DNA of 64,000 bases, from assembly GCA_964023275.1 (NCBI GenBank), contig OZ029918.1, positions 12,734,855 to 12,798,854 of the forward strand, read 5' to 3'. Source of the DNA: Norana najaformis. Its lineage: Eukaryota > Annelida > Clitellata > Crassiclitellata > Hormogastridae. Every line of letters starts with the position of its first letter. Position 1 is the stretch's first letter. This document shows positions 52,601 to 58,600 of the stretch, one piece after another. The notes under the pieces are model-generated. The model was not told the origin of the DNA and searched no databases. It saw only the letters and a list, made by a program, of their open reading frames with translations. The translations under genes were made by a program, and so were the position numbers.

Positions 52601-55600
52601 AGCTGATACGTTACCTTTAAGACCTCTCAAAAGCACTGTATACCTTGCTAAAGAAGAACAGCAGTTCCTCAAGAGCAGTTCCTCAGTTATTTAACCCCAG
52701 TGGCACCAATCGGTATGACGTGTCAGTGACGTCACATATTATTCAGGGCAGGTGGCCAGTCCTCTCCTTCACAGCCTGATCTTCCCATTAACAGAGTACT
52801 GTAATGCTTTACTGCCCGGGCAGGAATTGGACCCCCAACCTCTGGGATGACAGTCTAGCACACTAATCACTAGACTATCGTGTACCTCTGAAAAGATACA
52901 ACTTAAGATGAAAATGTGATTAGACCTACATCAAGTAGGAAGATTACTCTGGAAGGTTAAGTGTAAAAGAAGTTGAATAACTGCAAATGATCAGAAACTC
53001 CACAAATCAACAACTACAAGTAAATAATGATGCGTTTAAATTCTTACCAAAACTCTGGATGTATAGCCACTGTTTATGGAGATAGCTCTCAACATAATAT
53101 CTCGAATTGCTGCTGGTATGTCCTCAAACTTTGGAGTTGACTTGTGGTGGATCACTATGAAAACAAACAAAAAACGATACATTCATTATATATAAACAAT
53201 TCATGATTAAGCTAAGTGGTAACAAAACTTAGGTTTCACAAAAACCAAATCTCTCTGCTGGTTGTTAAGTTTTCACATCACCCTCAGACCACCTTTCAGT
53301 CTCACAGGACTGCCAAGTGGAAATGACTGGATTGCAGATGTGTCTTGGGGTGCCGTCAATTGATGTGCATTATTATAGTGATGCTACAGAAGTTCTAAGT
53401 TGATTAGATTAGGTTATAACAGAATTTTTCAAAAATTCTTTGCATTTCTCCTGATGTGACCTATCATAGCAACCAATAAGCAAAGACGTAATCAGCACAA
53501 GAAAAAAATTAATTCATGCTGATTACACCTTACAAAAATATGTAAACAAACAACACACCATAGCTCAACATCAATAATCATACAGGCAAAACTAGCCAAT
53601 CTAGGCAAACTTGAAAGAGTTCAACCAATTAAGTGAGTATGCAGAGTACGTTTGACAGGCTCTTAAGAGGAGCTACAAGTAAATTCCCATATATATATAT
53701 ATTACATTACACAAGTAGCAGCAGCTGATTGGCCAGTTGCTTGCTGAGTAATGTTAACTGTGCAGGTTCAAATCTCCATAAGACAATCGTTGTGTAGGGA
53801 ACCTGGGTAGTTTCCCCATAGAGTGATTGTCATGGGGAGTGATCACCTTCACTACACAGTAACAGTTCCCTACAATTGAGCTCCATGGCTGTGCATTAAA
53901 GCACAACTATTTTGCCCTGTGGATTGACACATGGTACGTATGCATGTATGTACAGGTTATCTGAACACTTAATATAGTGTTCGGATAAAGTACCTGTTGA
54001 AAGAGCTGAAGTCATTAGATACTGGTGCTCCACAAATACAATGATTTAACTGATTCCAGCAGAATAGGTGAATAAATGTGCCAACAGTAATTAACGCTCA
54101 AGGCTGAAATGTAATAAAAAATAAGCTAAGTATTGACATGAACTCACTTCCGATGTAACTCTGGACGACAGTCATTCGATTGGTCGTCAGGGTCCCAGTC
54201 TTGTCTGAACAGATGGCGGTAGCATTGCCCATCGTTTCACAAGCATCCAGATGACGCACCAAGTTGTTGTCAAACATCATTTTCTATTAAAAAATTTCTT
54301 ATTATGTATATGTGTGCATATTGTTGCAGGGTGGCACATGTGGGCATGGAGGTTAGAATGCTACCTGCAGGTGCCACCTGCAACAGAAGTGGTAGAGAAG
54401 GAGCATCCCTTTTCAGGCAGGCACTCCCGCGTATAAATCGGCGCGAGCGTGAGTTAAATTCAGGCCAACTTTTGGTTTGAACCTGTTTGGTTGTTTTGGT
54501 GTGTTGGGTTGTCAGACTCAGGAGATATGTTATTTTGAGGTTAATCATTTTAACGATTTCGTTTTCAAGCTGATAGTTTTGATGTTGATTCTGTCTCCCA
54601 TCATAGATGACCTTTTCTTGTGAAGTTGAAGCCGTGTCTTGTGGAGATTCTGATGTTCGTTGGACCGCTGTGGTCATTTTCTGTGTACATGTGAGTCTGA
54701 TTTTTGCTTGTAAATATAAGTCATTTTAAACTACTGCGGGTGTTTAGTTCTTCCCCTAGACTAACCTACAACAATATATAATGTACATATGAATGTATGT
54801 ATGCATGATGTAAGTATTCAGGTATGCAAGTATGCATGAACATATCAAGGCACTTAAAGTACCTAAAGCATCTTTTAAGTACCTCTCAAAGCGCTGCACA
54901 CAGGACTATAAAACTGACCTTAAAAAGTGCATTTTAAGGTCGGTTGAAATGTTTGTAGACCAGAATTAAGTGAAACAGTACATCGGAAATGCTAGATTGC
55001 TCCAGTTGGAAGGTCTAATGCAGAAGTAGGCACAATGGGTTCAAGTTGATGAGGAACTTTGCGTGGGTAAACGGCGGGAGTAACTATGACTCTTGTGTGT
55101 GAGTTCGTTGGTCTATTCCTGACGAGTCTACCCCGCAGAGCAATGCTTAGCTGGACGAGTGGTGACCTAAGGGGCGAAGGTCGCTGCAGTAAAATCTGGC
55201 AGCAGCTTCACGGGCTTTAATGGTACCATTCATATACATAGTGGATACCCTGGAGTACCGGCCGATTCGCTCTTCGTACGCTTCGCGGCTTGGGGCGGTC
55301 GGTCAATCGTTAGATGGCATCGAGGTGTTCCGCCTTACCAGAAGCTGGCTGGTTGGATATCATGAGCGGAAAGGCTTAGTAGTTAGTAGCTGCGTGATCT
55401 CGTCGTGGCGAAAGCGAAAGGCTTGGAAACGAGTGGTGAGGTCAGTTTTGACTCCCAGAGCGGGGTGCCACAACACCCATGTGCTCTACCGTCTTGTCAG
55501 GCAATTCGGGCTCTTTTAGTTGGCCCTGCCTGCGACCGGTGCTCTGAGCAGAACAGAGTCCCGTCAGGGACTGTATTCTGCGAGGGGACAATTACCGTAC

Positions 55601-58600
55601 AGGACGGAGGGGGAATGGGCCCACCGCTGCCCACATAATGCGGAAATATTAAAAGAGTCGGGTCGAGTGCCAACCGGTCGGTGCAGTAGTGATTGCACCT
55701 TCCTCACTGGTCGTCACTGGGACAGAGTATGTAATTCGGGGCGTGAAACTGGCATGTACCATGGTCGTGGGGGCTGCGCAGTGGTGCCCGTCTGGGGATC
55801 GGTGCCTGGTGGCTCCTAGTCGAACTGGAGGGTGTGAGAGCAACCACCTGTAAAGCAAGTGATGGGCTCGAAGTGTGTCGCCCTGGTGCGTGCAGGGTGA
55901 AAACCCGGAACCCCCGACCCAGGGGCGACGGCACTACAGCAGACTCTGAACTGGTGACGGAAACTGTATCGATACACTTGATGGACGAGTGCAATACGCG
56001 CGAGTCCGCCTCCGGGCCACTCCCGAGAGGGAGGATGTTTCGCCCAGTGCTAACTGAATAAGTCAAAGGGAAGAAATTCAAAAAGCGATGGGCAACGGCC
56101 TGGAGTGACTAGTACTCTCTTAAGGTAGTGATGAGGAAGCGTGGCACCTGCAGCATGGTCAAACCCGGCTGATGAGACTGAAGCACAAAGGCTCCCAGAC
56201 TGTCAAAGAGGTACCAGTACTGACAAGTAAGGTGCATCTCAGCAGGAAGATTGCACCTGGGTGCATGGTTTTTGCTCTCTGATGTTGTAGGAATAATCAC
56301 ACACTGAACTAAGAATTCCTCAACTTTATAGTGCTGGTTCATGCTTCAACAGATGAGAAATTCTTATTCACATGTATTATTCCTACTCGCTGTAGAACAA
56401 GGGTTTTGTTCTGATTCCGCTAGCACCAACATGTGAAACTGATATTCACAGATACATATTTTTTGTCCCTGCCATGCAGCTTGTCTTACATTATGGCAGA
56501 TTAGATCAGACCACATAAGATTAGATTAGATCACGTAAGAATGAGAGCAGCTGATTCAAGTTCACATACTAACCCGAACTGAGTAAGCAAGGGCAAGAGT
56601 GACTGCGAGTGGAAGGCCCTCAGGCACTGCAACGACAAGCACAGTCACACCAATAATGAAGAACTGGACAAAGAACGAGATGTACTTGTTGTTCCATGGT
56701 TCCTTCTCAATGGCAAACATCTTGACGCAGAACCGGACGACAAGAATGACCACCGTCAGAATTGCAATCACGGTGCCTAAGAAACACAACAGAACTCTAC
56801 TTGGACTTGAAATTTACCACCATTTATACAGCACCCATGCATGACCTCTCAAAACACACTGTACACTGCTGTGAAATCAGTCAAATTTAAAACAAACTGT
56901 GCCAAGGAAATGCTAATTAATAAGGATCAGAGACTACAGTTTTACCAGCAATATCCTACAACTGAGGGTGGCCAAGCAACAAAGGGCGCTATGAAAAGAG
57001 GCATACATGTAACAAATGAGTGATTTCCGTACGCCACCTTACGTACAATGAAACCAAAACACACCATGTACTGTTACATTACCATTCATGCTTGCTGCCT
57101 TAAAACAATTCTCACTAAACACATACTTCATCTTGCAACAAAAGGCAGACAACTAAAATATCACAGAAATAAATAATAAGAATACTAGAATACTAAAATG
57201 GCAAAAAATAAAAAATAACAAGTGCATTCTTGCAAGACATTGTATTATCACATATCTGTTGCACTGTTACAGGACAACAATGAAAATGCAACACATAATT
57301 GCTGAACTACATTTTTATGTATCATTGTATACATGCATTTGGAATTTCTTTACAACACTGGTTAAGAACTGCACAGTAACATGCAACAAAACTTCTTAAC
57401 ATCACTAACAGAACAATATACCTAAAGTTGAAAGGAAAAACACGTGCCACCCACAAGACTACATATAAAAGCTGTTAAAGTCATTATGGGAAGAACAGCT
57501 AAAGCTGAAATGCAAAAGAAATGCCACTCACCAACATATCCAATCTTGATGGCCAGTTTGGTCAACTTCGCCTGCAGAACAGATTTCTCCTTGCGGCCTT
57601 TGACTGGTGCCTTAGCTCCACTGGCTTCTGGCGGTGCTGGTTCCCCACCATCTTCTCCATCCGGTTGCTATTAAATACACCACCACTGTCACATATGTAC
57701 AATTGGCCCTTGCAGCAGCAAGCCTATTTCACAAAATTTACCAGGTTTACAAGATTAACAAGTTAAATGCCAAATGTTATTTATCACCAGAGACACACAA
57801 ATAAATACTTTGATGTCCTTAGTCAGGGGACACAAAAAATTTCAATTGCTGGTTAAAATCAAAAATTCAATTACAGAAGAAACAATAACCTGGTTAAAAC
57901 TATTCCACCAGATGTAATATATGACTGAATTTCCACTGACTTTGAAACAGATTAGTAATAAAAAACTGCCTGATGAAACTGCCAACCTCAGATCTCAAAG
58001 CCTCACCTCATTCACTTTAGTCTCGTTTAACATTATCTCTTCTGTGTCGACATTCACTTTTGAATTCTTGTAAATGTTCTTTCCACCACCGCTCTGATCA
58101 GAGTCTGACAGAAACACAAAACCACTTAGTGCACAGGCTCCTACAAGGTACATCACATAAAGAATACATCCTCATCATCAGTGAGGCCTACTGTACTGGC
58201 CAACTGGTCTTCAAACAAAGTGATTGGGATTGTAGGATTGAATGAAGATCAACTGGTCTTCAAACAAAGTGACTGGGATTGTAGGATCGAATGAAGATCA
58301 ACTGGTCTTCAAACAAAGTGACTGGGATTGTAGGATTGAATGAAGATCAATTGGTCTTCAAACAAAGTGACTGGGATTGTAGGATCGAATGAAGATCAAC
58401 TGGTCTTCAAACAAAGTGACTGGGATTGTAGGATTGAATGAAGATCAATTGGTCTTCAAACAAAGTGACTGGGATTGTAGGATTGAATGAAGATCAATTG
58501 GTCTTCAAACAAAGTGACTGGGATTGTAGGATTGAATGAAGATCAACTGGTCTTCAAACAAAGTGATTTTGGATTGCTAGATTGATATCTAGCCCGTCAT

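Follow-up and report, generated by a model that had tools for sequence, protein, structure and literature searches.

What is a GC-rich unit of about 1.07 kb, with 28S rRNA sequence from the R2 target region at both ends, doing at positions 55061-56128 of the window, a 64,000-nucleotide stretch of the Norana najaformis genome? Its GC content is 0.53-0.58 in the four intervals that fall within it versus 0.30-0.46 in the others between 50000 and 60000, in agreement with the initial annotation, which had called it compositionally foreign. Nearby, an exon-like stretch on the minus strand (56562-56789) matches plasma-membrane Ca-ATPase chains (E 7.9e-19), and no tRNA was found in the window. The unit is non-coding: its longest frame, 134 amino acids, had no detectable protein homologues, and ten frames tested against Pfam matched no family, with no R2 open reading frame among them.

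The left end (55061-55093, plus strand) is identical at 32 of 33 bases to 28S, covering roughly positions -40 to -8 relative to the R2 nick, AAGG/TAG (slash, nick position). The right end (56042-56128, plus strand) matches 28S at 72 of 88 aligned positions with 6 gaps and ends in CTCTTAAGGTAG, its CTTAAGG/TAG lying at 56119-56128. The reference for these alignments was a human 28S sequence; the same head and tail matches were obtained against two eukaryotic 28S contigs present as contaminants in prokaryote metagenome-assembled genomes. Each end scored above all 2000 shuffles, bearing out the earlier reading that both derive from the R2-site region. The Rfam eukaryotic LSU model, which has a gathering score of 50, aligned 56038-56128 with approximately model positions 2196-2282 but gave it no more than 16.1 bits (E 0.079), and wider Rfam searches did not reach this match.

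Between the ends lies a core (55103-56041, plus strand) that is constant among copies and holds no known domain or RNA family. As first described, it is not recognizable 28S: its alignment score of 208 is within the range of shuffles (193, standard deviation 12). Only 12 of 2000 shuffles did as well as one 35-nucleotide collinear match at about 55929-55962, but that match lacks the adjacent conserved 28S bases. The whole middle as diverged 28S was thus rejected, because it stays within shuffles and only the ends hold. A single piece of rDNA moved elsewhere, a 28S pseudogene or a chimera of the assembly would account for 28S at both ends, but 28S collinearity is confined to those ends, the middle does not align to 28S above shuffles, and many other copies share the same boundaries; we give this explanation practically no weight. 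Neither chimerism nor a recombined rDNA junction moved out of the array, both raised initially, explains hundreds of copies.

Those copies emerged from a genome pattern search allowing up to two mismatches, which returned 282 tail and 145 head matches, with none for the controls. Scoring 40 of 443 candidates gave 48 match rows, dispersed over the chromosomes, some in tandem units. The window unit is thus a single copy of a dispersed retrotransposon family in this 608-Mb genome, here called el, as suspected when a non-autonomous rDNA-element derivative or a short element with 28S head and tail was proposed. Two pairs of loci, L040 with L111 and L016 with L020, are segmental duplicates of single insertions, and copy counts are therefore not all independent.

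The 28S head of the window copy starts where those of other copies do. Among 27 copies containing GGGTAAA, 25 begin 36-40 nucleotides before the R2 nick, two at 41-42 and none further upstream; because GGGTAAA was required, 36 is the smallest value that this count could give (3 of 30 copies failed the requirement, and the start was not intact in 10 of 40 records). After the head come variable junction bases (55094-55102 in the window copy, plus strand), with 15 distinct strings in 19 copies, or seven groups once near-identical strings are merged, a variation that looks R2-like. Mean divergence is 3.2% for heads against 28S and 5.9% for cores against their own consensus (22 of 26 copies). Where they align with the window element, two relatives, L057 and L058, are 67-76% like it, and neither has a mismatch in 28 head positions. 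Subfamilies this different with perfect 28S heads are most simply explained by re-acquisition of the head from rDNA cotranscripts, although selection could be another source of its constancy. In 22 of the 47 rows found, 85-94% of the aligned tail bases agree with 28S upstream sequence. The tail, which ends CTTAAGG, is part of the element and represents 28S from upstream of the nick that was copied long ago and has since diverged. The initial suggestion of different ages or sources for the two 28S pieces also fits: the head looks freshly host-derived and the tail an old component.

Evidence on how copies arrive comes from their flanks. The window copy is bracketed by an exact 10-nucleotide repeat, TGATGAGGAA, at 55047-55056 and 56129-56138 (plus strand); the right copy directly follows the tail, and the left is separated from the head by four bases, CTTT (55057-55060). 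Such a repeat is not rare when sought over 330-nucleotide flanks (p 0.22), and we count it as a target duplication because it abuts both unit ends. A 16-nucleotide candidate, TGATGAGGAAGCGTGG, which overlaps the head, was rejected, as GCG before GGG is 28S sequence in other copies. The window copy's own target reads AAGT/TG, with a duplication of 10 nucleotides only.

A test confined to flanks, from which 12 of 60 rows were dropped (three tandem, four truncated at the 3' end, five with a changed tail), found clear target duplications of 19-126 nucleotides in 9 of 48 copies and no significant duplication in the other 39. Four of the nine have AAGG before the nick, the core of the R2 site AAGG/T, and two further ones have TAGG and AAGC. 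By eye, AAGG/T was also read in L026, L044, L046, L094 and L127; the target is not AAGG in L042, L097 and L117 by the flank-only test, nor in L125 by eye. Earlier duplication alignments favor AAGG because they were allowed to extend toward the tail. Three el loci lie within a 28S-like repeat, at the position that corresponds to the R2 site, and in one relative, L053, the tail reads into 28S TAGCCAAATGCC at the R2 3' junction, the only 28S 3' junction seen. The proposed home site is the 28S position between ...GACTCTCTTAA and TAGCCAAATG; the assembly has no assembled rDNA array, and source copies are therefore not seen.

These targets bear on whether el is instead a SINE-like element moved by another LINE, never resident in rDNA, with fixed 28S pieces kept by selection. 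Dispersal over the chromosomes, a core unrelated to the R2 elements found and the absence of a clear R2-type target signature from most copies would all suit such an element. Less easily reconciled with it are diverged cores that are joined to perfect 28S heads by junctions that differ, the L053 junction, the AAGG/T targets and an el consensus with no match to simple A-box or B-box patterns, and we consider it unlikely.

The genome contains two R2 families, R2-alpha and R2-beta, and el copies neighbor R2 in 9 of 30 R2 loci, in the order el-R2 or R2-el (two of the nine are the same copy). R2 open reading frames stand beside some el copies as separate units. Neither family is similar to el (tblastn gave 31 rows for the core and 38 for the reversed control), and el as a part of R2-alpha or R2-beta was rejected on that ground, although another R2, located in the unassembled rDNA, might share sequence with it. 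In L068, an R2 sits exactly at the AAGG/TAG of an el tail with a 24-nucleotide duplication; among 15 R2 copies tested it alone stood out (score 21, with mismatched pairs reaching 22 once in 210), and the duplication owes its weight to starting exactly at the nick. L085 and L066 have junctions between el tail and R2 of the R2 5' type, and 28S-like bases follow R2 in L089. Similar bases after R2 in L060 and L066 were rejected because they did no better than shuffles (4047 of 5000 and 1105 of 5000, respectively).

Such neighbors could mean that el spread mainly as a passenger of R2, its composites arising in rDNA or by template jumping, with no mobility of its own. The R2-beta 3' end joined to el core in L009, L016 and L020 and the tandem el units point the same way. 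Against it, when the 300-nucleotide flanks of the window copy and of 39 fetched loci were compared, only those of L016, L018 and L020 contained R2 sequence, and solo el copies have their own duplications; this explanation seems improbable. We conclude that el is probably a non-autonomous, SIDE-like, R2-dependent retrotransposon with source copies at the 28S R2 site, the window unit being a dispersed copy.

The el element would be transcribed within pre-rRNA. Copy ends suggest that the jumping RNA starts about 40 nucleotides upstream in 28S, perhaps through self-cleavage, and often ends 0-4 nucleotides into 28S on the other side. An R2-type protein would then carry out target-primed reverse transcription on el RNA, with nicking that favors AAGG/T, both in 28S and where the motif occurs by chance outside it, as target sites in part of the copies show. 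Landing outside 28S would give 28S-headed copies such as that in the window, some with target duplications of up to 126 nucleotides. As for self-cleavage, an HDV-like ribozyme descriptor scored at best 33.0 in el (shuffle bests 30.5-35.5), Rfam gave no HDV match, and el folds no better than shuffles (z-score 0.51), but the 5' end of the copies in 28S is sharp. In the last 300 or so nucleotides, 9 of 62 predicted pairs have double changes, but the covariation term is only -0.55, and this result carries no weight in the interpretation.

As far as the published descriptions considered here extend, SIDEs consist of an R2 ribozyme and an R2 or R1 3' end and are found in 28S. Like them, el is short, non-coding and apparently tied to the R2 site, with variable 5' junctions and a presumptive R2-type helper; template jumps are also described in those systems. 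It differs in having no detectable R2 sequence (neither 5' nor 3' end of R2-alpha or R2-beta) or HDV-like ribozyme, a 28S-like end and hundreds of dispersed copies. A diverged upstream-28S copy at the 3' end is shared with R2 elements that have a 28S-like 3' UTR; in the portions of those reports used, these are coding, and in the three with characterized 5' junctions 110-130 bp of 28S is replaced. The heads of el indicate that 28S is retained as far as the R2 site, so the tail is an additional copy. Self-cleavage of R2 within 28S, at sites reported in the sections consulted as 9-36 nucleotides upstream (Eickbush, Burke and Eickbush 2013, PMC3774820), resembles el in placing the probable RNA 5' end shortly upstream in 28S and in having 5' junctions whose 28S bases vary or are duplicated, although el ends point to about 40 nucleotides and the HDV-like fold was not found. 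Drosophila R1 is coding and has a different target site; in the relevant part of PMC2718515, its copies outside rDNA can have 7-28 bp of upstream 28S at the 5' end. The el head is longer and accompanied by a 28S-like tail.

The best reading of the tail is that it copies the R2 target, and it may thereby rebuild it. By pairing with the target it may also bring the end of the RNA to the nick, and through it every inserted copy would have an R2-like target next to it, as the R2 lying exactly on one such tail suggests. Because the tail copies the target half upstream of the nick, each el in 28S would end in a new usable R2 site. We tentatively propose, as a possibility we rate somewhat below even, that el is a self-renewing landing pad: R2 and el would stack in one gene, R2 would home to tails outside rDNA, and el would use R2 enzymes, with tail pairing guiding its RNA end to the nick.

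Site-specific elements normally consume their own target. An element whose 3' end holds a copy of the upstream half of the target could restore the site, which would give rDNA elements a new means of sharing one place and stacking in it. The dispersed copies record possible off-target R2-type nicking at AAGG/T, together with duplication lengths, which bears on R2 gene-insertion work. The el family also provides a test case for a 28S-like 3' end that aids insertion by target pairing, as Kojima and colleagues proposed for fish R2.

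The initial annotation had described a unit at 55061-56128 of the window with 28S rRNA sequence at both ends and a middle not recognisable as 28S, and alignment bears this out. The left piece is identical at 32 of 33 positions to host-like 28S immediately upstream of the R2 nick (AAGG|TAG in the 28S gene). On the right lies a diverged copy of the ~85 nucleotides upstream of the nick plus TAG (72/88, 6 gaps), which the Rfam eukaryotic LSU model also detects, weakly (16.1 bits). Only these two ends match 28S; the ~940 nucleotides between them do not score above shuffles, contain no Pfam domain in 10 frames, and yield no RNA family at gathering score and none convincing below it. 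An exact 10-nucleotide repeat adjoins both ends, with an extra CTTT on the left, and an exon-like stretch nearby gives a match to plasma-membrane Ca-ATPase. By eye, the intron around the unit holds an LTR-like stretch at 54322-54773 (TGTTGCAGGG...CTACAACA, ATAT on either side). The window also contains a 49-nucleotide unit tandemly repeated 7.5 times at 58201-58566 (97% matches) and, at 61095-61829, a 244-residue LINE reverse-transcriptase-like frame with 132 database relatives of up to 86% identity.

The unit belongs to a family. The search for further copies that had been proposed, run on the window's own genome (608 Mb, 17 contigs), gave at least 48 match rows (40 scored of 443 candidates). 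The 608 Mb contain 282 matches to a 24-nucleotide tail pattern (up to 2 mismatches) and 145 to a 28-nucleotide head pattern, the reversed control of each giving 0. A consensus of 1076 nucleotides was built from 26 copies, which diverge from it by 3.8-11.0%. One locus, L094 (C6:26540450-26545250), carries four units in a tandem array with an identical 38-nucleotide spacer, three of them >99% identical and the fourth ~94%.

At the 5' end, head starts were measured in the 27 records containing GGGTAAA, from 30 with an intact start among 40. The 28S match begins 36-40 nucleotides before the nick in 25 and 41 or 42 before it in 2; the lower bound of 36 is imposed by the GGGTAAA requirement, and the finding is the upper bound, no head among the 27 starting further upstream than 42. 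Between head and core, 19 copies show 15 strings of variable bases, or 7 groups once near-identical ones are merged, resembling R2 5' junctions, where variable bases are also reported (PMC3774820). Mean divergence is 3.2% for heads from 28S and 5.9% for cores from the consensus in 22 of the 26 copies, the 4 without intact heads being left out. Two divergent relatives, L057 and L058, are only 67-76% like the window element in aligned stretches, with 0/28 head mismatches. Selection could have kept the head constant. Since heads are closer to 28S than cores are to the consensus, and are perfect even in these relatives, the simplest account is that each jumping RNA acquired its head afresh from a 28S gene. 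Drosophila R1 offers a precedent for 28S-headed copies outside 28S: among its non-28S insertions are some with 7-28 bp of upstream 28S sequence (PMC2718515).

The 28S-like tail is part of the element. Its similarity to 28S, counted over aligned bases, is 85-94% in 22 of the 47 rows found, and in 8 divergent copies it is conserved slightly above the preceding columns (0.838 versus 0.791). Among 33 copies, terminal CTTAAGG is followed by TAG in 16 and is absent in 7. In a relative, L053, the tail is joined to 28S at the R2 3' junction (...CTTAAGGAA|TAGCCAAATGCCTCGTC...), the one direct sight of the element's probable 28S home. The 17-nucleotide 28S string of this junction occurs only 4 times in the genome, which suggests that the assembly lacks the rDNA array.

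Target duplications were sought, in the flanks alone, for 48 copies whose 3' end is intact, the cut-off being the 99% level of mismatched pairs. Nine exceed it, with lengths of 19-126 nucleotides (L025 perfect at 126); none was found above it in the other 39, which are uninformative on target. Immediately before the nick, L025 (last G shared), L027, L045 and L095 read AAGG, L024 reads TAGG and L133 AAGC; in L042, L097 and L117 the four bases are unlike AAGG. Inspection by eye adds AAGG|T in L026 (a single duplication enclosing two copies), L044, L046 and L127, and in L094 without duplication; the target is TAGG|TAGCC in L103, and AAGG|T is absent in L125 and the window copy (AAGT|TG). At three distinct loci, L024, L103 and L121 (= L058), the element occupies the R2-equivalent position of a 28S-like repeat (33/41 like 28S around that position in L024 and L103); a fourth, L131, has a related right-hand flank. 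The repeat target reads GGGTAAGAGGC(A/G)GGAGTAGCTATGACGAGCTTTAGG|TAGCC in L103 and L121. Together, the AAGG|T-type targets and R2-equivalent positions point, for part of the copies, to insertion by an enzyme preferring the R2 core.

Using a silkmoth R2 protein (sequence agreeing with PDB 8gh6), we obtained at least 61 genome matches (54 scored of 4667 candidates), the weakest perhaps from other clades. Two R2 families stand out, R2-alpha and R2-beta, with DNA ~65% alike; an R2-alpha ORF in L060 encodes 1096 residues with an RT domain and, by eye, one CCHH finger. Copies of the two families are scattered outside 28S and have neighbours arranged in tandem (L060, L061, L066, L080). Element sequence is present in 9 of 30 fetched R2 loci, two of the nine being the same copy and some other fetched loci overlapping. 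L068 shows an R2-alpha relative exactly at an element tail (...CTTAAGG TAGTGAAAGAAATAGCTAGGAAGG [R2] TAGTAAAAGAAATAGCTAGGAAGG). In L085 and L066, the only loci recovered by a genome-wide pattern for this junction, the tail breaks off within its last bases and R2 starts there, an arrangement resembling R2 5' junctions in 28S. A 28S-like stretch follows R2-alpha in L089 (2/5000 shuffles equally good); the sequence after R2 in L060 and L066 failed the same test. Tandem and mixed runs of element and R2 fit template jumping, which is reported for R2 (PMC3414825).

The element would work like a SIDE, a short non-autonomous R2-dependent element, but lacks one defining feature, sequence shared with R2 (PMC3414825), none being detectable with R2-alpha or R2-beta. 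Its tail recalls the 28S-like 3' UTRs of fish R2s; the three characterised fish families with such UTRs replace 110-130 bp of 28S, whereas the heads here retain 28S up to the site (PMC5035012). In searches of open-access papers, none was recognised as describing a similar element. Other dispersed fragments, which open with 64-160 nucleotides of 28S running downstream from roughly the R2 site, lie at L050 (C6:36034657), L051 (C4:43491380), L052 (C17:10729706) and L055 (C5:23887148); in L052 the 28S piece continues into a body ending in a TTAC-repeat, perhaps a second 28S-headed SINE-like family.

No HDV-like ribozyme was found in the element. We propose that it would reside in rDNA and be cotranscribed, that R2 enzymes would act on it, and that its tail may both guide the RNA end and rebuild the target.
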